From contig JABMLH010000006.1 of the NCBI GenBank assembly GCA_013205085.1, forward strand, positions 1-64,000: a stretch of 64,000 bases of DNA, given 5' to 3'. The stretch's first letter is position 1, and the number at the start of each line of letters is the position of its first letter. The position numbers and the translations under genes are program-made. The stretch comes from Microbacteriaceae bacterium VKM Ac-2854 (GTDB taxonomy: Bacteria > Actinomycetota > Actinomycetes > Actinomycetales > Microbacteriaceae). This document shows, piece by piece, positions 38,920 through 49,055 of this stretch. The notes beneath the pieces are model-generated. The model ran no database searches, was not told the origin of the DNA, and saw nothing but the letters and a program-made list of their open reading frames with translations.

Positions 38920-38932
38920 CCCCACTGACCAT

Positions 38933-38999
38933 CCCCGCGAGATGCCTCTTGCGTACGCCGCGTCCGGCGTGTCGCGTACAGAAGAGGCACCTCGCGGGG
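38933..38999. repeat. palindromic repeat family A, copy 2
   Basis: The arms CCCCGCGAGATGCCTCTT and AAGAGGCACCTCGCGGGG differ by one base from perfect pairing. The right inner half CGGCGTGTCGCGTAC is identical to copies 1 and 3. Unlike copy 1, it lies inside a probable operon between the LLM and flavin reductase genes. Confidence 0.85.
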
Positions 39000-39037
39000 C
39001 GGACAGCAGCACCCCACACGCTCCAGGAAGAAGCATC

Positions 39038-39676
39038 ATGACCACCCGCACCCTCGCGGTCGTCTCCGCGGGACTCAGCCAGCCCTCCTCCACCCGGATG
39101 CTCGCCGACCGGCTCACGGAGGCGACCGTGCGTCGCCTGCACGAGCAGGGCTTCGAGACCGACGTCACCGTGATCGAGCTGCGCGACCTCGCGCACGACA
39201 TCACGAACAACCTGCTCACCGGATTCGCGGCGCCCGCGCTGCAGACCGCGCTCGACGCGGTCGCGGGAGCGGACGGCCTGATCGCCGTGACCCCGATCTT
39301 CACCACCAGCTACAGCGGCCTGTTCAAGTCGTTCATTGACGTGATCGACACCGAATCCGTGCGCGAGCTGCCGGTGCTGCTCGCCGCGACCGGCGGATCC
39401 CCGCGGCACTCGCTCGCGGTCGACTACGCGATGCGCCCGCTGTTCACCTACCTGCACACGCACCCGCTGTCCACCACGGTCTTCGCCGCGACGGACGACT
39501 GGGGCGGCAGCAGCGACGACGCGCGGGCACTGCCGGGACGGATCGAGCGGGCCGCGGAGGAACTCGCGGCGGAGGCGGCGCGCAGCGAGCGCTCCACGAA
39601 CATCCGCGATCCGTTCGCCCTCGAGACCGACTTCGCCGCGATGCTCGGCACCCCTCGTTCGGGGGACGTACACTGA
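39038..39676 (+). CDS. NAD(P)H-dependent FMN reductase, CE1759-like (LLM partner)
   Basis: The 212-residue flavodoxin-like protein shows VVSAGLSQPSSTRMLADRL (FMN phosphate loop with Ser/Thr), VTPIFTTSYSGLFKSFIDVI and LLAATGGSPRHSLAVDYAMRPLF. It should supply reduced FMN to the luciferase-like monooxygenase encoded before it. CAGGAAGAAG precedes ATG. A monooxygenase gene of Baeyer-Villiger type follows after 4 nt. Confidence 0.9.
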   Translation: MTTRTLAVVSAGLSQPSSTRMLADRLTEATVRRLHEQGFETDVTVIELRDLAHDITNNLLTGFAAPALQTALDAVAGADGLIAVTPIFTTSYSGLFKSFIDVIDTESVRELPVLLAATGGSPRHSLAVDYAMRPLFTYLHTHPLSTTVFAATDDWGGSSDDARALPGRIERAAEELAAEAARSERSTNIRDPFALETDFAAMLGTPRSGDVH

Positions 39677-39680
39677 TCGC

Positions 39681-41135
39681 GTGATCGAGACCCGCACCGA
39701 TGTCCTCATCGTCGGTGCGGGCTTCGCCGGTCTCGGGATGGCGGCGGCACTGCAGCGCGCCGGGCGATGCTTCCTGATCCTCGAGGCCGCCGACGGCGTC
39801 GGCGGTGTCTGGCGAGAGAACACGTACCCCGGCGTCGCCTGCGATGTGCCCAGCCCGGTGTACGCGTTCTCGTTCCGGCCGGAGCCGGGCTTCGCTCGGC
39901 TCTTCGGCACGGGGGAAGAGATCGAGCGGTACCTGCAGGCCGTGACCGCCGAGTTCGGCTTGGCTCCGCGGCTCCGACGCGGTGAGACCCTGACGGCCGC
40001 CGAGTGGGACGACGCTGCCCAACTCTGGCGCGTCACGACGGCGCGCGGGCACCGCTACGCGGCGAACTCCCTGGTGCTCGCCACCGGCCAATTCCGTCGC
40101 CCGCGCGAGGCGGATCCGCCCGGCCGCTTCGCCGGGCCGAGCTTCCACTGCGCGCGGTGGGACGCCTCCGTCGATCTCGCCGGCCGCCGGGTCGCCGTGA
40201 TCGGCACGGGCGCGAGCGCGGTGCAGTTCCTGCCGCGGATCGCGCCGACGGTGGCGACGCTGACGATCTTCCAGCGCCATCCGTCGTGGCTGCTGGCCCG
40301 GCCCGACGTCGCGGTGCCGGCCCTCGCGCAGGAGGCGTTCGCCCGCGTCCCGCCGCTGCACCGGGCGGTGCGCGGCGCCCTTCTGGACGCACTGGAGGCG
40401 CGCGGCGCGCTCTTCGACGCGCCGGATCTCGTGCGGTCAGCGGTGGAGCGCCTCGCCCGGCGTCGCCTGCGGCGCGCGGTCGCCGATCCGCTGCTGCGCG
40501 CCGCGCTCACGCCGACCGATCGGATCGGATGCCGCCGGGTACTGCTCTCGAACGACTACCTGCCGATGTTCGCCCGCCCGAACGTCCGCTTGGTCGCGAG
40601 CGGCGCCCGCGCCGTGACAGAAGGCGGCGTCCTGGACGGCTCGGGGATGCACCATCCGGTCGACGTGGTAATCCGAGCGACCGGCTTCGATGTGCTCGGC
40701 GCCTGGGAGGAGATGCGCATCGTCGGGCGCGCGGGCACCGATCTCGCCGAACGCTTCCGCACCTCGGGTCTGGCCGCGTGGCACGGCATCGCGGTGCCTG
40801 GCTTCCCGAACCTGTACCTGATGCAGGGGCCGAACACAGCCGCGCAGAGCTCGCACCTGCGGATGATCGAGCACCAGGCGGAGCACGTGCTGTGGATGCT
40901 CGCGGTGCAGCGCAGCCGCGGGTCGAGCAGCAGCGAGATCCGCGAGGAGGCGCTGGAGCGGGCGGATGCGCGGCTGCGGCACCGCCTCGCCTCCGGGGTC
41001 TGGGGCGACGCCGCTTGTGCGGCGTTGCGCGACGCGCGTGGGGTGAACCGGCACGTGCATCCGGGGTCCACCGCGAGCTACGGGCGCGCGGTGCGCCGCA
41101 TCGAGGTCGCCGACTACCTGTGGCGGCGACGCTGA
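39681..41135 (+). CDS. flavin-containing monooxygenase with Baeyer-Villiger fingerprint
   Basis: The 484-residue FAD/NADPH enzyme starts at GTG. The FAD loop is VGAGFAGLGMAAAL. The fingerprint FAGPSFHCARWD at residues 150-161 matches FxGxxxHxxxWD of Baeyer-Villiger monooxygenases rather than the ordinary FMO form. The NADPH loop is GTGASA (175-180). GPNTAAQSSHLRMIEHQAEHV lies near the C-terminus. Substrate is unknown; it may tailor the product of the convergent NRPS/PKS pair. The stop overlaps the next ATG. Confidence 0.87.
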   Translation: MIETRTDVLIVGAGFAGLGMAAALQRAGRCFLILEAADGVGGVWRENTYPGVACDVPSPVYAFSFRPEPGFARLFGTGEEIERYLQAVTAEFGLAPRLRRGETLTAAEWDDAAQLWRVTTARGHRYAANSLVLATGQFRRPREADPPGRFAGPSFHCARWDASVDLAGRRVAVIGTGASAVQFLPRIAPTVATLTIFQRHPSWLLARPDVAVPALAQEAFARVPPLHRAVRGALLDALEARGALFDAPDLVRSAVERLARRRLRRAVADPLLRAALTPTDRIGCRRVLLSNDYLPMFARPNVRLVASGARAVTEGGVLDGSGMHHPVDVVIRATGFDVLGAWEEMRIVGRAGTDLAERFRTSGLAAWHGIAVPGFPNLYLMQGPNTAAQSSHLRMIEHQAEHVLWMLAVQRSRGSSSSEIREEALERADARLRHRLASGVWGDAACAALRDARGVNRHVHPGSTASYGRAVRRIEVADYLWRRR

Positions 41136-41464
41136 TGCACCGGATGGCGGCTGCCTTCGCGCTCGCCGGTGCCGCGAAACTGCGACGGATGCCCTCGCGC
41201 CGGCTGATGCCGTGGGTCGACGGTTACAGCCTCCGCACGGTGCGGCTGATCGGGGTGGCCGAGCTGGCCGGTGCGGCCGGGCTGCTGCTTGCGCCGCTCG
41301 CCGCGCCGGCCGCCGCCGGCCTGGGGCTGCTGATGCTCGGCGGGGTCGGCGTGCACCTGCGGCGGCGCGAGCTGCTCCGGGCGGTGCCCGCCGCCGTGCT
41401 GCTGGGCGGATGCATCGCGGTCCTCCGGGATCGCCGAGCGGCCGGCGCTACGCGAGCGCGATGA
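41135..41464 (+). CDS. small DoxX-like membrane protein
   Basis: The 109-residue product has three or four hydrophobic helices (AAAFALAGAAKL, LIGVAELAGAAGLLLAPLAAPAAAGLGLLMLGGVG, VPAAVLLGGCIAVL). FALAGAAKL and GVAELAGAAGLL are typical of DoxX-like proteins. Function is unknown. It is coupled to the monooxygenase (TGATG overlap). Its 3' end overlaps the convergent PKS gene by 17 nt. Confidence 0.7.
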   Translation: MHRMAAAFALAGAAKLRRMPSRRLMPWVDGYSLRTVRLIGVAELAGAAGLLLAPLAAPAAAGLGLLMLGGVGVHLRRRELLRAVPAAVLLGGCIAVLRDRRAAGATRAR

Positions 41465-44144
41465 GCGCCTCCTCGATCGCGACGCCGATGCCCGGGTCAC
41501 GCAGCATCGAGTAGTGCGTTCCCGGCACGTCGATCGCGCGCAGCTCGGGGAGCACGCTCGCCCAGCCGCCGCGCGCCGCGAGGTCGACGCCGAGCAACGC
41601 GAGCACGCGAGGATTCTCGGGCTCGCTCGCCCGCAGCAGCACCGTCGGGGCCAGCGGGACCGCATCGGGATACCAGCGCTGCAGCGCGCGATGATCCTGC
41701 CGCCAGTTGTCGAACATCCCGTCGAATCCGCCGCGGTCACCGGCATCGGGGAACAGCTCGGGCAGCAGCGCGGCGTAGGCCTCGGCGTGATGCTCCGGGG
41801 CCCCGACGGCCGCGAGGTAGGCGCTGGGCGGATGCGCGTCCAGCAGCAGCACGCCGCGGACGTCACCGCCGGACGCCTCCTCCTGCAGCGCGGCCTCCAG
41901 GGCCACGGATCCGCCGAAGCTGTAGCCGGCGAGCAGCAGCGGGCCCGAGGGCTGCCGCTCGCGGGCCTGCGCGCGATAGTGCGAGGCCGCCGCGCGGATA
42001 CTGCACGCGCCGATCGGGCGAGCGAGCGGAAGCAGCGTCCGAGAGGTCAGACTGCGCGCGACGGGGGCGTAGACCGCCGCCGAGCCGCCGGCGGGCGGCA
42101 GCAGGAAGAGCGGCGTGTCCTGCCGCACGGGCGGGGCGGCACGCGCGGCGTGCATCCGGCGCACGGTGCGCTCGCGGAGGATGTCCTCGACGCCCAGCCG
42201 CAGGTCGAGCCGATCCCGCAGCGCGGTCGCGAGCTCGACCACTCCGAGCGAGTCGAGGCCGAGCGCGAGGAGATCGTCGTCGGGGGCGAGCGGCGGATGC
42301 TCGAGGATGTCGGCGGCCACGGTGCGGATCGCCTCCAGGGGGTCGTCCGCCGCGCGGAAATGCAGGGTGGGCGGCGAAGTTACCGTGCGCATCCGCAGGT
42401 TCTCGCCCGATTTCCGTCCTGGCCCTGTATTTCCGTCCCCATCCTGCATTTCCGAAGGGGCGGATCCGGACCCAGCGGATCCGGACGGGGCGGATCCGGA
42501 CCCAGCGGATCCGGACCCAGCGGATCCGGACCCAGCGGATCCGAACCCGGCGGCGGCCTCGAAGCGCGACTCGCGGAGGGGGTGCGGCGGCAGCGGGGTG
42601 CGGCGGGCGTGCCGCAGCTCGCCGAGGGCGGATGGGGTGGGCAGCGGGTCGCTCGGGGCGAGGATGCGCAGCCCCGGGTCGGCGCGGCCCTCGGCGAGGG
42701 CGGCGAGGGCCGCGATCGCGGCGGCGTGATCGGGGGCGACGATCTCCGCGCGTTCGGCGAGCAGGCGCCGGCCGAGCCGCAGGGTCGCGGCCGTGTCGTC
42801 CAGGCGCGGCGGCAGCGCGGCGCCCAGTGCGCTCGCCAAACCCGACGCCGCGGCCGCGAGGTCGGCGCGGTCGCGTCCGGTGACGAGGAGGCGGAAGGGT
42901 CCGCGCGGTTCGGGCCGTGGCGCCGCGGATCCGGGCAGCAGCACCGCGTGCACGTTGGTGCCGCCGAGGCCGAAGGAACTCACGCCCGCCGCGCGGAGGG
43001 GCCGCGCGAGCGCGTTCGCGCTGACGCGCATCCGCCCGCGCAGCTCCAACTCCGGATTCGGCACCTCGAAGCCGCGCTGGGCCGGCACCTGCTGCGCCGC
43101 CAGCGCCTGGATCGCGACGATCATCCCGGTCACCCCCGCCGCGGCGTCCAGGTGCCCGATGTTCGCCTTCACGCTGTGCAGGTGCAGCGGCGGCCCCTCC
43201 GCGGCGGCACCGTAGACCTCGGCCAGCGCGCGCACCTCGATCGGATCGCCGAGCCGGGTGCCCGTGCCGTGCGCCTCCACCAGGTCCACCACGTCGGCGG
43301 CCACGTCCGCGGCGGCGAGCGCCTCCGCGATCACCTCGCGCTGGCCCGCGACGCTGGGCGCGGTGAATCCCGAACGGTCGGCGCCGTCGTTGTTCATCGC
43401 GGTGCCGGCGAGCACGGCGTGCACCCGGTCGCGATCGAGCACCGCGTCATCCAGGCGGCGCAGCACCACCGCGGCGACCCCGCTGCCCGGCACGGTTCCG
43501 GCGGCGCGCGCATCGAAGGGTCGACACGCGCCGTCGGGCGAGAGGATTCCGCCCTCGCGGTAGCGGTAGCCGACGCCCTGCGGCTGCACAACGCTGACCC
43601 CGCCGACCACGGCCAGGTCGCAGTCGCCGGCGAGCAGCGCCGACCGTGCGAGGTGCACGGCCGCGAGCGAGCCGGAGCAGGCGGATGAGACGGTGACGGC
43701 CGGGCCCGTCAGCGCGAGCAGATAGGCGGCCCGGGTGGCGAGGAAGCCGGGATCGTGGCCGATCAATGCGGCGTAGTCCGGAGCGCCGTCCACCAGGCCG
43801 GTCGGCCGCGTGCTCGTCGTCGTCGCGCCGAACACACCGATGCGCAGCCGGTCCTGGCCCGCGTGCCCGGCGTGCTCCAGCGCCCGGAAGACGGTCGCGA
43901 CGAAGAGCCGCTGCTGCGGATCCGTCGCGCGCGCCTCCCGCTCCGAGAGCCCGAAGAAATCGGCGTCGAAGAGCTCGGCGCCGGCGAGGTCCGCTGTCGC
44001 GCCGACCCCGTGCTCGTGGGTCGGCGGCACCGATCGGATGCCCGTGCCGCCGTCGCGGGTCAGCCGCCAGAGCGCCTCCGGGTCGGCCGCGCCGGGGAAA
44101 CGCCCGGCCAGGCCGATCACGGCGAGGTCCTCCGCGCGACTCAC
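41448..44144 (-). CDS. AT-less polyketide synthase: KS-ACP-TE
   Basis: This is an 898-residue megasynthase module. The ketosynthase (residues 1-400) has its full triad: C156 in SSACSGS, H292 in EAHGTGT and H331 in NIGH. The usual KS-to-AT linker follows (GPFRLLVTGRDR...), but no acyltransferase with GHSxG appears. The post-AT motif RRTPLPPHPLRESRFE (514-529) comes next. A 15-nt-repeat-coded GSAGSGS linker (534-564), an ACP (S632 in LGLDSLG) and a thioesterase (S742 in GYSFGG, H877 in GTHYS) complete it. Malonyl must be loaded in trans. The GTG start overlaps the NRPS stop. Confidence 0.93.
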   Translation of the reverse strand: MSRAEDLAVIGLAGRFPGAADPEALWRLTRDGGTGIRSVPPTHEHGVGATADLAGAELFDADFFGLSEREARATDPQQRLFVATVFRALEHAGHAGQDRLRIGVFGATTTSTRPTGLVDGAPDYAALIGHDPGFLATRAAYLLALTGPAVTVSSACSGSLAAVHLARSALLAGDCDLAVVGGVSVVQPQGVGYRYREGGILSPDGACRPFDARAAGTVPGSGVAAVVLRRLDDAVLDRDRVHAVLAGTAMNNDGADRSGFTAPSVAGQREVIAEALAAADVAADVVDLVEAHGTGTRLGDPIEVRALAEVYGAAAEGPPLHLHSVKANIGHLDAAAGVTGMIVAIQALAAQQVPAQRGFEVPNPELELRGRMRVSANALARPLRAAGVSSFGLGGTNVHAVLLPGSAAPRPEPRGPFRLLVTGRDRADLAAAASGLASALGAALPPRLDDTAATLRLGRRLLAERAEIVAPDHAAAIAALAALAEGRADPGLRILAPSDPLPTPSALGELRHARRTPLPPHPLRESRFEAAAGFGSAGSGSAGSGSAGSGSAPSGSAGSGSAPSEMQDGDGNTGPGRKSGENLRMRTVTSPPTLHFRAADDPLEAIRTVAADILEHPPLAPDDDLLALGLDSLGVVELATALRDRLDLRLGVEDILRERTVRRMHAARAAPPVRQDTPLFLLPPAGGSAAVYAPVARSLTSRTLLPLARPIGACSIRAAASHYRAQARERQPSGPLLLAGYSFGGSVALEAALQEEASGGDVRGVLLLDAHPPSAYLAAVGAPEHHAEAYAALLPELFPDAGDRGGFDGMFDNWRQDHRALQRWYPDAVPLAPTVLLRASEPENPRVLALLGVDLAARGGWASVLPELRAIDVPGTHYSMLRDPGIGVAIEEALIALA
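42465..42548. repeat. tandem CAGCGGATCCGGACC repeats coding a Gly-Ser linker
   Basis: About five 15-nt units built around GGATCCGGACCCAGC encode (GSAGS)n between the KS remnant and ACP of the PKS. In-frame expansion or contraction would only change linker length. Confidence 0.8.
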
Positions 44145-47065
44145 TCCAGCGCCGACCAGAACGCGCCGAGGTCGCTCGCCCGTCGGGCGGGGCGCGCGGG
44201 AGCCGACCAGGCCGCGAGCGAGCGCGGCGACGGATGCTCGAACAGGTCGACCATCCGCGTCTCGATCCCGAGTTCCGCGCGCAGGGCGCGGCTCAGCTCG
44301 ACCAGGTGCATCGAGGTTCCACCGGCGTCGAAGAACGCGGAGTCGACGTTCACGGACGGCACGCCGATCACCCGCGCGAACACGTCGGCGATCCGCTCGG
44401 CGGCGGTGCCGGGCGCGGTCGTCGCTCGGCGCAGGCCCGAAAACAGTGCCGCCAGCAGCGCCGCCTCGTCGACCTTGCCGTTGGCGGTCAGGGGCACCGC
44501 GTCGATCCGCTCGATCACCGCCGGCACCATCACCGCGGGCAGCCGAGCCGCCAGCGCCGACCGGGCCGCGCTCGGATCCGCATCGCCCGCGAGCCACGCC
44601 GCGAGGAACGGCTGCCGACCGCTCGGCTCGGCCAGCGCCACCACCGCGTCGCGCACCCCGGGCAGCGCGCGCAGCGCCGCCTCCACCTCGCCCGGCTCGA
44701 CGCGGTGTCCGCGGAGCCGGCGCTGCCGGTCCAGCCGGCCGAGGTACTCCAGGGTGCCGTCGAGACGCATCCGCACCCGATCTCCCGTGCGGAGCACCCG
44801 CTCGGCGAACGACGTGTCGGTGCGGAAGCGCTCGGCGGTCGCTTCGGGTCGCGCCAGGTAGCCGAGCGCCAGCCCGTCCCCCCACACCAGCAGTTCACCG
44901 CTCACCCCGCGCGGCACCGAGCGCAGCCGGGCGTCGACGACCGCGACACCCAGGTCGGCCAGCGGCCGCCCGATGCTGCGCGTTCCGTCCACGGCGTGAG
45001 CGGTGACGTGCACGGTCGCTTCGGTGATCCCGTAGAGGTCGACGAAGCGGGCGCCGCCGGGCATCCGCTGCACCAGCCGCGGCTCCAGCTCCTCGCCGCC
45101 GAACAGCACGAGCCGCACCGCGGGCAGCTCCGCTCCCGCGTCGAGTTGCCGACGGAACGCGGACGGCGTCTGGTTCAGCACGCTCACGTCGTGCTCGCGG
45201 AGGAAGCGCGCCGTGGCGAGCGGATCCGCCACTGTCGCGCGATCCGGGATGCACAGCCGGGCGCCCGCCGCGAGGGAGCCGAACAGCTCCCAGACGCTGA
45301 AGTCGAAGGCGGCGGAGTGGAACAGGCACCACCGATCCGACGGACGCGGGTCGACGAGTTCGCGGGTCGCCGCCAGCAGGCGCAGCACAGCGCGATGGCT
45401 CACCTCGACACCTTTCGGCTCGCCGGTGGAACCGGAGGTGAAGATCACGTAGGCCGGGTCGTCGGGCTGCGCGCGCGCCGCCAGGGCCCCCGGCGACCAC
45501 GGCGCCGCACGCAGCACCCGCAGTTCGGCACCCTGCGCGTCAGCCACCACCGAGCGGATGCGCCGGCCCCGCTCCGGCGGCCCGTCGGGGTCGAGCGGCA
45601 CGTACGCGCGCCCCGCCCGCAGGATGCCCAGCACGGTGATGACGAGGTCGATTCCGGGCGGCATCGCGACCCCGAGGTAGCGATCGGCGCCCATCCGCTC
45701 GATCGCCGCGGCGGCGGCCTCGACCCGCGCGGCCAGCTCGGCGGCCGTGATCGAGCCGCGCTCGTCCGCCACGGCGATGCGGTGCGGATCCGCTGCACCG
45801 GCCGCGAGCACCGCCTCCGCGATGCCGCCGAGGACTGGGTAGCGCCGCCGGACCGGCGTGACGCTCGGCTCGGCCGCGAGCGCGGCGGCGACCCCGGCCG
45901 GCGCGCTGTCGCGATCCGCGCGCAGAGCGGCCGCGAACATCGTCCCGACCCCGTGCCCCGCGAGCCGATCCGGCACCGCGACGACGACGTCGAGCGCGCC
46001 CGCCGCCGGAGTGACCGAGAGCTGCACCGCGGCGGCGAGCGTGCGCCGCGGCAGCGGCAGCGCGACCGCAGCACCGAGCGGGAGCGCGAGCGGTCGCCGG
46101 TACACCGTGATGGTGTTGTCGAAGCCCCCGAAGGAGCCGACATCGGCGTCCTGATGCCGGAGCAGGCCGGTCAGGCGGAGCTCGAGCCAGGACTGCAACT
46201 CGGCGATCGAGGCGTGCGCGCCGAGACGGATCGGCAGCGGCACCGTGCGGACGAAGCAGCCCAGCGCCTCCCGCGCCGCGCGGGTGGAGCGACCCGCGAT
46301 CGGCACGCCGACCACCACATCATCCCGCCCGCTCAGCGCCGCGATCACGATCGCGTGCGCCGCCGTGAGCTGCGCGGTGAGCGAGGCGTCGCCGTCCGGT
46401 CGAGCCAGCCGGAGCCGGGTCTCGTGCCGCACGTCTGTGGGTTCGACCGCGAGTACCGACTCCGGCGGCGAGGCGAGGGACGCGGCGAAGAACGCCTGCG
46501 CGCGCACGGAATCGACCCGGCGTGGCACGGTCGCGGGATGCGCGTCCAGCCCGGCCGGCAACGACGCGCCCCGATACGCCGCCGCCACCGCCGCCCTGAA
46601 CCGCTCGTGCGTGGTCGCGTCGGCGACCAGGTGCGAGGTGACCACCCCGAGCCACGCGCCGTCGGCCGAGGTGTACACGGTGCAGCGCGGCTGCGGCCAG
46701 GCCTCGGGGGCGATCGGCGAATCCGCCTCGCGGGCCACCGATGCCGCGACGGCGTCGTCCGACCCGGGCGAAACCAGCAGCGGCACCTCGTGCCGGCGGT
46801 GCCCGGGGCGGAACACCCGCGCGACCGGCCCCTCCGCCGTCTCCACGAACACCGTCGAGAGCGCGGCCGACGCCGCCAGCACGGTGCGGATGCTCGCGGC
46901 GAGCCGCTCCGGATCGGTGCCGGGATCGAGTCGGTACGCGAACCCGAGATTCAGGCTCGCGTCGCCGGGATGGGTCCTGGCGTGCAGGTAGAGCGCGAGT
47001 TGCGCCGGCGTGAGTGGATGATCGTCGGCGCGGGCAGTGCCGTCATCATCGGGGATGGGAGTCAT
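44141..47065 (-). CDS. nonribosomal peptide synthetase: C-A-PCP, threonine-like code
   Basis: This is a 974-residue single module. In the condensation domain (about 15-400) the HHxxxDG motif reads SHLVADA: catalytic H145 and D149 are kept, Gly is Ala. In the adenylation domain (about 420-870), TSGSTGEPKG, YGITEAT, RTGD and K864 in NGK are intact. Aligning to the GrsA pocket gives D588-F589-W592-N631-L654-G656-L677-V685-H686, close to the threonine code DFWNIGMVH. The PCP Ser is S918 (GGTSMH). A leading C domain suggests the amino acid is first N-acylated. The PKS follows by 4-nt overlap. Confidence 0.93.
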   Translation of the reverse strand: MTPIPDDDGTARADDHPLTPAQLALYLHARTHPGDASLNLGFAYRLDPGTDPERLAASIRTVLAASAALSTVFVETAEGPVARVFRPGHRRHEVPLLVSPGSDDAVAASVAREADSPIAPEAWPQPRCTVYTSADGAWLGVVTSHLVADATTHERFRAAVAAAYRGASLPAGLDAHPATVPRRVDSVRAQAFFAASLASPPESVLAVEPTDVRHETRLRLARPDGDASLTAQLTAAHAIVIAALSGRDDVVVGVPIAGRSTRAAREALGCFVRTVPLPIRLGAHASIAELQSWLELRLTGLLRHQDADVGSFGGFDNTITVYRRPLALPLGAAVALPLPRRTLAAAVQLSVTPAAGALDVVVAVPDRLAGHGVGTMFAAALRADRDSAPAGVAAALAAEPSVTPVRRRYPVLGGIAEAVLAAGAADPHRIAVADERGSITAAELAARVEAAAAAIERMGADRYLGVAMPPGIDLVITVLGILRAGRAYVPLDPDGPPERGRRIRSVVADAQGAELRVLRAAPWSPGALAARAQPDDPAYVIFTSGSTGEPKGVEVSHRAVLRLLAATRELVDPRPSDRWCLFHSAAFDFSVWELFGSLAAGARLCIPDRATVADPLATARFLREHDVSVLNQTPSAFRRQLDAGAELPAVRLVLFGGEELEPRLVQRMPGGARFVDLYGITEATVHVTAHAVDGTRSIGRPLADLGVAVVDARLRSVPRGVSGELLVWGDGLALGYLARPEATAERFRTDTSFAERVLRTGDRVRMRLDGTLEYLGRLDRQRRLRGHRVEPGEVEAALRALPGVRDAVVALAEPSGRQPFLAAWLAGDADPSAARSALAARLPAVMVPAVIERIDAVPLTANGKVDEAALLAALFSGLRRATTAPGTAAERIADVFARVIGVPSVNVDSAFFDAGGTSMHLVELSRALRAELGIETRMVDLFEHPSPRSLAAWSAPARPARRASDLGAFWSALE

Positions 47066-47172
47066 CGGATTCCGATCGGGGCCGGGCTGGTCCGGCCGGG
47101 CCGAACGTAACTCGAACGAGGCACACGACGCAACGTCGACTGTCGCCGGATCGACGCCTGGGGCCGGCGCAT

Positions 47173-48316: not shown

Positions 48317-48376
48317 GCCTCCGCGCGCTGAGTCTCCGCGCGCTGAGCCTGCGGGCCGCTGAGGCTCGGGCTCACC
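48312..48376. repeat. tandem and inverted repeat at two convergent stops
   Basis: Two imperfect 15-nt units of CTCCGCGCGCTGAG plus a diverged third lie between GGTGAGCC (48312-48319) and GGCTCACC (48369-48376). The arms include the stop codons of the kinase and of the convergent membrane-protein gene, and may end both transcripts. Confidence 0.55.
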
Positions 48377-49055
48377 GCCGCCGTCGGTCCAACAGAGTCT
48401 GCAGCGCGAGCGCCACAACGGCACCGATCGCGGCGGCGACCATAAGGAGTCCGGAAGCAGCGGGCACGGCGCCGCCGACGAGGATGGGCGCGATGCCGAC
48501 GAGGCCGAAAAGGGCCAACGCAACCGAGACGACGGCGACGACGCGGGTCGCCGTGCCCAGGCGGTGGCCGGGCGGCCGGTACGTCGAGACGCGGGTCGAG
48601 GCGGCCACGGGCGGAACCGGCACCGGCGGCACAAGCGCGAGCAGAGCGCGCATCCGTTCCACCACCTGCTCGAGTGGTTCGGTCGCGCCGCGCGGCTCCG
48701 GGATGTCGAGCGGCACCAGAGCCTGCGCACCGTCGACGTCGACGTCGAGGACGATTCGGCCGACGCGCCGACCGAGCACCATGCCCTCATCCGGTCGGTA
48801 GCCGGGTTCCGGCGCGTAGGGGCTCGCGTCGATCCATCGGATGCGGGCCTGTGGGAACCAGGCGTTATCGCCGATCGAGACTCGCTGCGTCGTCACCGTC
48901 ACCGCGAACAGCGTCGGGTTCCGAGAGTTCTCCAGGCCGAGGAAATCCGCCGCGACCTCCGGCCAGGCCGTGCGCAGAGCCGCGACGGTCCGCCCTTCCC
49001 CGAACACGGCCGGAGGCGTCTCGGCGCGTAGCGAGATCGATGACGCCGGGGTCAT
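48372..49055 (-). CDS. conserved membrane protein of the signalling locus, unknown function
   Basis: The 227-residue product has a soluble N-terminal part with several aromatic/acidic strands (ADFLGLENSRNPTLFAVTVTTQRVSIGDNAWFPQARIRWID, YRPDEGMVLGRRVGRIVLDVDVDGAQALVPLDIPEP-type region) and two C-terminal membrane helices (VVAVVSVALALFGLVGIAPILV, LLMVAAAIGAVVALALQTLL). I recognise no named family. It starts directly after the FHA gene's stop and is the last gene of the operon, so it may anchor the complex to the membrane. Confidence 0.7.
   Translation of the reverse strand: MTPASSISLRAETPPAVFGEGRTVAALRTAWPEVAADFLGLENSRNPTLFAVTVTTQRVSIGDNAWFPQARIRWIDASPYAPEPGYRPDEGMVLGRRVGRIVLDVDVDGAQALVPLDIPEPRGATEPLEQVVERMRALLALVPPVPVPPVAASTRVSTYRPPGHRLGTATRVVAVVSVALALFGLVGIAPILVGGAVPAASGLLMVAAAIGAVVALALQTLLDRRRR

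Follow-up and report, generated by a model that had tools for sequence, protein, structure and literature searches.

The closest described relatives of the locus analyzed here belong to the biosynthesis of mutanocyclin and reutericyclin, in which the nonribosomal peptide synthetase (NRPS) MucD consists of condensation (C), adenylation (A) and peptidyl carrier protein (PCP) domains, and the polyketide synthase (PKS) MucE of ketosynthase (KS), acyl carrier protein (ACP) and thioesterase (TE) domains (PMC10161427). According to the same source, the starter C domain of MucD acylates leucine with a decenoyl group, and MucE, supplied with an added acyltransferase (AT), extends the chain with malonyl, accepting the D configuration only, and closes the tetramate ring by lactam formation; the evidence comes from mutants (deletions and point mutations), feeding experiments and an assay of MucE in vitro. 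MucABC were proposed there to add the C-3 acetyl group, and a survey based on the core genes mucA-E yielded 63 strains, 60 of them Firmicutes and 3 Actinobacteria. Here we describe an NRPS/PKS gene pair from Microbacteriaceae bacterium VKM Ac-2854, situated in a stretch of 64,000 nt (hereafter the window) that forms the first 64 kb of contig JABMLH010000006.1 (C15 in our numbering) in a 4.75-Mb draft genome of 18 contigs (G000). We predict, with a probability of roughly 0.55, that this pair is a threonine-selective, AT-less actinobacterial relative of MucD/MucE that gives an N-acyl 5-(1-hydroxyethyl)tetramate.

Domain architecture and relatives

The genes were called with our own GC3-based caller and not with a standard program; it prefers both frames over long open frames on the opposite strand. 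The two share 4 nt (GTGA), formed by the GTG start of the PKS gene and the TGA stop of the NRPS gene, and Pfam detects every domain of the C-A-PCP and KS-ACP-TE proteins far beyond chance: Condensation (3.1e-18), AMP-binding (5.9e-67) and PP-binding (3.5e-15) in the NRPS, and ketoacyl-synt (7.3e-58), Ketoacyl-synt_C (6.7e-36), PP-binding (7.6e-13) and Thioesterase (3e-18) in the PKS. An earlier note on this DNA had described the two overlapping genes with coordinates that proved exact (Table 1), and had claimed that all catalytic residues are present. The second claim holds for the active-site residues, since those listed in Table 1 for the C, PCP, KS, ACP and TE domains, together with K864 of the A domain, are kept in alignments with relatives; a reservation concerns the condensation motif, in which SHLVADA deviates from HHxxxDG by Ser for the first His and Ala for Gly. 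The corresponding motifs are SHLVVDA and AHIIGDA in two sister pairs (see below) and SHEICDV in a MucD-like protein of L. plantarum.

The same note knew of no described pathway of this composition, which is wrong, as MucD/MucE have exactly it (PMC10161427). Both systems combine a C-A-PCP NRPS that begins with its C domain and a separate KS-ACP-TE PKS, lack an AT and form a small cluster, and the mutated MucD residues H135 and D139 share the H-x3-D spacing of H145 and D149 in the window C domain. Both window proteins are homologous along their sequence to their counterparts in the MucD/E-like pair from pLQ801 of L. plantarum (30% for the PKS, 26% for the NRPS), and the Pfam domains are identical. 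In another L. plantarum plasmid, pLP315 (L191:8989-13126), an IS256-like element breaks the KS-ACP-TE gene, which is one open frame in pLQ801.

MucD/MucE differ from the window pair in using leucine, whereas the A-domain pocket here is threonine-like, and in having mucABC-type genes and a phosphopantetheinyl transferase (PPTase) gene at their side, which were not found beside the window pair. A tblastn search with three L. plantarum MucABC-type proteins (E 1e-5) detected none of them in the 64-kb window, in 53 kb around the pair of genome G033 (L129-L131) or in 27 kb around that of genome G745 (L179, L180), while all three were found in the positive control (L190). Thus, the composition is known, and what appears to be new from the sequences is the threonine selectivity, the occurrence of such pairs in actinobacteria and the lack of acetylation genes nearby. 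A threonine version without the companion genes may be undescribed, judging from a search of the open-access literature that did not cover MIBiG.

The two sister pairs have the same architecture and order as the window pair, a 4-nt overlap and no AT. One comes from a genome of the same family (G033; NRPS L130:10790-13978, PKS L130:13975-16665) and the other from another family (G745; NRPS L179:10503-13619, PKS L179:8050-10506). The window PKS is 42% identical to the former and 45% to the latter, the NRPS 38% and 41%, respectively; both sister NRPSs have the pocket DFWNVGMVHK, and both sister PKSs have a shorter KS-ACP linker that lacks the repeat element present in the window PKS. Near the G745 pair lie genes for an MFS protein, a STAND-LuxR regulator and a member of the ACPS superfamily, near the G033 pair genes for two STAND-LuxR regulators and one HXXEE-family protein. 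G033 also encodes, near its active pair, an intact 867-aa KS-TE paralogue (L130:4042-6645) devoid of active residues: Asp replaces the KS Cys and both His are lost, the TE Ser and Asp are changed to Asp and Ser, and His stands at the position of the ACP Ser, with no ACP match. This protein is perhaps a scaffold or decoy.

A KS-ACP-TE profile matched at least 6 of 398 genomes of the family at 1e-60, with matches to both its KS and its ACP-TE part in G000 and G033 only, and at least 25 of 396 genomes of the order at 1e-40, with both parts matched in G000 and G745 only; the counts are lower bounds, because two candidates per genome were scored. Within the genus, 14 of 15 genomes had a match at 1e-3, none of them full-length except that of the window itself, and no plasmid record contained a single place covering 80% of the window PKS or NRPS.

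Predicted substrate and product

The pocket letters DFWNLGLVH given in the earlier note were borne out by alignment, which adds K at position 517. Its assignment of a threonine-like A domain is strengthened by the closest solved A core, 5n9w (137.8 bits; runner-up 114.5), the sequence of which equals that of 5n9x, the L-Thr-activating domain Thr1 (PMC6668435). The leucine selectivity typical of MucD was not found, and the MucD-like protein of L. plantarum has the pocket DYFTLGLVVK, which is not threonine-like. Outside the sister pairs, a type IV muc-like cluster on Priestia megaterium plasmid CP109765.1 (L190:7283-8989) likewise has KS-ACP-TE and a threonine-like pocket, DFWNIGMIHK, but differs in having the NRPS split into two genes and in the presence of HMGS-like, thiolase and zinc-ribbon genes; a threonine-like pocket therefore occurs also in a cluster that keeps these genes. 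Type IV muc clusters were suggested as ones that may make reutericyclins (PMC10161427). The same Priestia stretch also holds HXXEE, LuxR-type and DoxX genes.

In the pathway that we propose, the amino acid used, the donor of the acyl group, the enzyme that loads malonyl and the type of ring are all predicted from the sequence. The A domain would load L-threonine on the PCP, and the leading C domain would N-acylate it, probably with a fatty acyl-CoA as donor, because the genome contains no other condensation domain: all matches lie in this NRPS, so no other NRPS module is expected to feed the line. The domain is a candidate starter-type C domain, with H145 and D149 in place. The KS would then take over the acyl-threonyl chain and condense it with a malonyl unit that a FabD-like housekeeping enzyme would have loaded onto the ACP of the same protein. 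For release by the TE, the amide nitrogen would attack within the beta-keto chain, and an N-acyl 5-(1-hydroxyethyl)pyrrolidine-2,4-dione, i.e. a tetramate, would result. No C-3 acetylation step is predicted, because MucABC-type genes are missing nearby. The N-acylation by the leading C domain, the single malonyl extension, the TE release with cyclization and the tetramic acid as a candidate product had all been put forward in the earlier note, and the analogy with MucD acylation and with the lactam formed by MucE supports them.

The main rival to the tetramate starts from the same chain but lets the TE use the threonine hydroxyl, yielding an isomeric six-membered lactone (5-acylamino-6-methyl-dihydropyran-2,4-dione). 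All three pairs have a threonine-like pocket (DFWNLGLVHK, DFWNVGMVHK and DFWNVGMVHK), which would make the hydroxyl a conserved feature within reach for a six-membered ring, and thioesterases commonly form lactones. We nevertheless consider this outcome unlikely, since the closest characterized line, MucE, makes a lactam, with the amide nitrogen closing a five-membered ring (PMC10161427).

A different route to a tetramate is offered by tenuazonic acid synthesis. The responsible enzyme, TAS1, is reportedly a single fungal protein of the order C-A-PCP-KS, ending in the KS, so that an NRPS part followed by a KS and a tetramate product would be shared with the window pair. TAS1 too joins an NRPS to a following PKS part (PMC4640141), and its ring is formed by Dieckmann closure (PMC10161427); an analogous scheme for the window pair would have the C domain add acetoacetyl and the KS close the ring. 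The line analyzed here consists of two proteins, and an ACP and a TE with active residues follow the KS in all three pairs, which makes a TAS1-like route highly improbable.

If the preferred reading, a threonine-derived N-acyl tetramate closed as a lactam, is true, the lactam route published for leucine would extend to threonine, and also to pairs without mucABC, which surveys searching for mucA-E would miss. With only two genes involved, the choice of the TE between lactam and lactone in the presence of a hydroxyl group is directly testable in vitro. More broadly, and with slightly less than an even chance, the three pairs may stand for an undescribed actinobacterial family of N-acyl tetramates, or isomeric lactones, that derive from threonine and bear no C-3 acetyl group. 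The assembly line would consist of two genes and share its malonyl loader with fatty acid synthesis, and in the genome studied here its KS-ACP linker would have adopted an intergenic palindromic repeat, without the stop of the repeat family, as coding sequence.

The missing acyltransferase

That the pair contains no AT, as the earlier note stated, agrees with the Pfam scan, in which the window PKS has no Acyl_transf_1, and with the absence of a match to our own AT profile. The RhiE-like_linker model, which covers the KS-flanking AT-docking/linker region, reaches 21.8 bits, below its 27-bit cut-off. The best PDB match of the KS is 7zma, which we take to be a trans-AT KS. The PDB matches first suggested a classical trans-AT KS; the trees instead place the pair KSs in a clade of their own (starred; 97/93 in one tree, 99/98 in another) surrounded by KSs mostly followed by an AT, in a sample that is not a reference set, so that an origin from a cis-AT line that lost its AT is as likely. 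The first KS tree had 46 rows after L057 and L059 (<300 aa) had been dropped; the 97/93 and 99/98 trees combine 24 of these 46 with new ones, and from the latter tree L171 and L172 (<300 aa) were dropped. Among the 37 KS loci on genome contigs, an AT follows the KS in 29, none was detected in 5, and 3 are too short.

With the G033 PKS as the query, 10 plasmid records had one place that covers at least 80% of it, the listed places all being below 60% identity. Those examined were H25, H33, H39, H44 and H21, other Sinorhizobium, Serratia and Methylosinus places being left out; the protein at H21 has an AT. A plasmid of Sinorhizobium garamanticum (L193:1761-8831) has the order C-A-PCP-KS-AT-ACP-TE, which resembles the window pair but is realized in one protein of 2356 aa with its own AT, a possible cis-AT counterpart of the pair. 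Because this one-chain protein has an AT, a cis-AT form may have given rise to the AT-less one.

Only one Acyl_transf_1 (PF00698) match was found in the genome (C12:393946-394779), and no dedicated AT was seen beyond it, as in a trans-AT system. Ketoacyl-synthase matches number three: the window PKS, one on C12 and one further along C15. The C12 AT gene scores 167 bits with the FabD model TIGR00128 (cut-off 261) and lies 1.5 kb before the C12 KS gene, which matches FabF at 478 bits (cut-off 494); because of this place near a FabF-like gene we read it as FabD. It follows from the single AT match that the ACP, if the line works, would be loaded by a FabD-like enzyme or by itself. The missing AT is not strange, because FabD serves as a trans-AT for pseudotetraivprolide, as backed by kinetics (PMC12828459), and is indicated in this role for barnesin (PMC13096860). 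The systems concerned, with PipC and BrnF, respectively, resemble the window pair in joining an AT-less PKS to an NRPS without a dedicated AT, but the PipC module carries a ketoreductase (KR) and BrnF a KR and a dehydratase (DH), and their products are other than the one predicted for the window pair (PMC12828459, PMC13096860). The genome has three PF01648 matches as candidate PPTases, two of which (L150:1360-2082 and L149:1420-1953) can be read, weakly (24-27 bits), as small Sfp-like transferases.

A palindromic repeat in the KS-ACP linker

Between its KS and ACP the window PKS contains, in frame, a palindromic repeat element with the consensus ends CGGAAATGCAGGG...CCCTGCATTTCCG and a strong hairpin. 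The genome has 39 matches to the element, including the window copy and some partial ones; of the 29 further copies examined first, 25 lie clear of predicted genes and 4 partly overlap one. In the frame used by the PKS, 35 of the 37 copies that span the site carry TGA, the exceptions being the window copy (TCG) and a copy at C13:116125-116253 (TGC), which lies in an open frame running into a flavin monooxygenase gene. If translation began at C13:116001, with a 4-nt overlap with the stop of the preceding gene, the C13 element would fall inside the protein. This monooxygenase gene (L187:2502-4229) is related to the one near the window pair (Table 1), and its N-terminal region may be coded by the in-frame copy, which follows a PPxxEPP-like repeat. 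Both coding copies stand after low-complexity repeats and resemble each other in the right flank; one may thus derive from the other. In the window Rfam gave no match at gathering score, with 7 sub-threshold matches to miRNA families at the element region.

Palindromic repeats that occur both between genes and in frame within them are known from Rickettsia palindromic elements and other protein-coding bacterial miniature inverted-repeat transposable elements (MITEs) (PMC2229807). The element found here behaves in the same way, being dispersed, palindromic and, as far as the frames indicate, also in frame in the PKS linker and the C13 monooxygenase; it differs from the Rickettsia elements in sequence and host, and its family carries a stop that is lost in the two coding copies. 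In the linker, a dispersed repeat would thus serve as coding sequence, and the stop codon carried by its family provides an internal control. The missing in-frame TGA speaks for a PKS frame that is kept open and suggests that this frame matters to the cell.

These observations bear on the view that the pair is a non-functional remnant of a larger or cis-AT system, which would have lost its AT as well as its tailoring, transport and LuxR-type genes and had its linker invaded by a repeat. Such a history would fit the position of the KS clade amid KSs most of which have an AT after them, the Sinorhizobium protein with the same order and an AT, the repeat inside the linker, and the fact that the pair stands alone in the genome. 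We find it improbable, as the catalytic residues and the 4-nt overlap are kept and the TGA of the element is absent, and as the G033 and G745 pairs lack an AT too.

Points that weigh against a tetramate

Several findings weigh against the prediction of a threonine-selective line making a tetramate. MucE accepts a D-configured chain only (PMC10161427), and neither MucD/MucE nor the window pair has an epimerization domain. The C domain, which scores 66 bits with Condensation and, taken alone, 50 bits with its best solved match, is divergent and has lost the first His of its motif. In the pocket, L299 and L322 depart from the relatives' codes, and 2-aminobutyrate or a similar residue is a possible substrate, because CytC1, whose substrate we presume to be of this kind, is also among the best solved A-core matches. 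Identity to the two muc-like pairs is low (27-30% for the PKS, 22-26% for the NRPS). In the KS tree, where the Priestia row is long, a 93/89 split places two Muc-like KSs on the same side as the four pair KSs; this grouping points toward MucD/MucE but, being below the starred level, is only suggestive. The C12 AT gene read as FabD scores equally with malonate decarboxylase epsilon (168 bits, cut-off 298). No MFS transporter or LuxR-type regulator was found among the scanned neighbors of the window pair, in contrast to G745. Should the linker element be a copy of the one in the C13 gene, the missing TGA would be no independent event. Finally, the tetramate is a product deduced from genes, and the TE could form a lactone because threonine brings a hydroxyl absent from leucine.

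Genomic setting

Table 1. Positions in the window of the NRPS/PKS pair, its domains and linker repeats, and the other genes of the same block
Feature	Positions	Strand	Details	Basis
NRPS gene	44141..47065	-	C-A-PCP; 974 aa	
Condensation domain	45806..47065	-	residues 1-420; motif SHLVADA; H145, D149	
Adenylation domain	44453..45793	-	about residues 425-871; pocket DFWNLGLVHK	Pfam, alignment
PCP	44207..44398	-	residues 890-953; Ser in GGTS	Pfam, alignment
PKS gene	41448..44144	-	KS-ACP-TE without AT; GTG start; 898 aa	
Ketosynthase	42939..44144	-	about residues 1-402; C156, H292, H331	Pfam, alignment
15-bp tandem repeats	42455..42542 (ends approximate)	-	code for GSAGS/GSAPS linker, just before the palindromic element	direct reading
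Palindromic repeat element	42355..42454	-	100 bp, in frame in the KS-ACP linker; TCG for the TGA of the family	
ACP	42153..42335	-	residues 604-664; S632	Pfam, alignment
Thioesterase	41451..42113	-	residue 678 to end; S742, D769, H877	Pfam, alignment
DoxX-like membrane protein gene	41189..41464	+	same block; 17-bp 3' overlap with the PKS 3' end	
Flavin-dependent monooxygenase gene	39681..41135	+	same block; FMO/Baeyer-Villiger like; convergent	

The window region 39637..47163 has no match at the corresponding site of G010, the nearest relative in the genus by DNA identity, apart from one of 27 bp. In the genus, the genes on either side of the site encode an FMN reductase and a Ser/Thr kinase; in 13 relatives (L114-L126; the fourteenth, G014, was left out) these flanks are adjacent in 5, enclose a small ORF in 1 and an ABC-transporter-like set of three genes in 7, and none of the 13 has an NRPS/PKS pair there. 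The GC content is 0.75-0.76 across 40001-46000, compared with 0.65-0.735 in the other 2-kb bins. Taken together, the pair looks like part of an acquired block at an insertion hot spot.

The monooxygenase gene of this block is relevant to one more alternative, in which the TE merely hydrolyses the chain and the beta-keto acid loses CO2, giving an alpha-acylamino hydroxyketone, perhaps a signal or a substrate of the monooxygenase, which could oxidize the ketone. As this gene is convergent with the pair, no monooxygenase occurs among the scanned neighbors of the sister pairs and the literature search revealed no precedent, we regard simple hydrolysis as quite doubtful, clearly behind the lactone.

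Outside the block, a 212-codon ORF without a Pfam or NCBIfam match lies between a kinase gene and an FHA gene (48372-49007), where G010 has only about 200 bp. Between an LLM monooxygenase gene and the FMN reductase gene there is a repeat of about 67 bp (38932-39000) that has matches at many sites in the genus and is possibly a terminator-like element.

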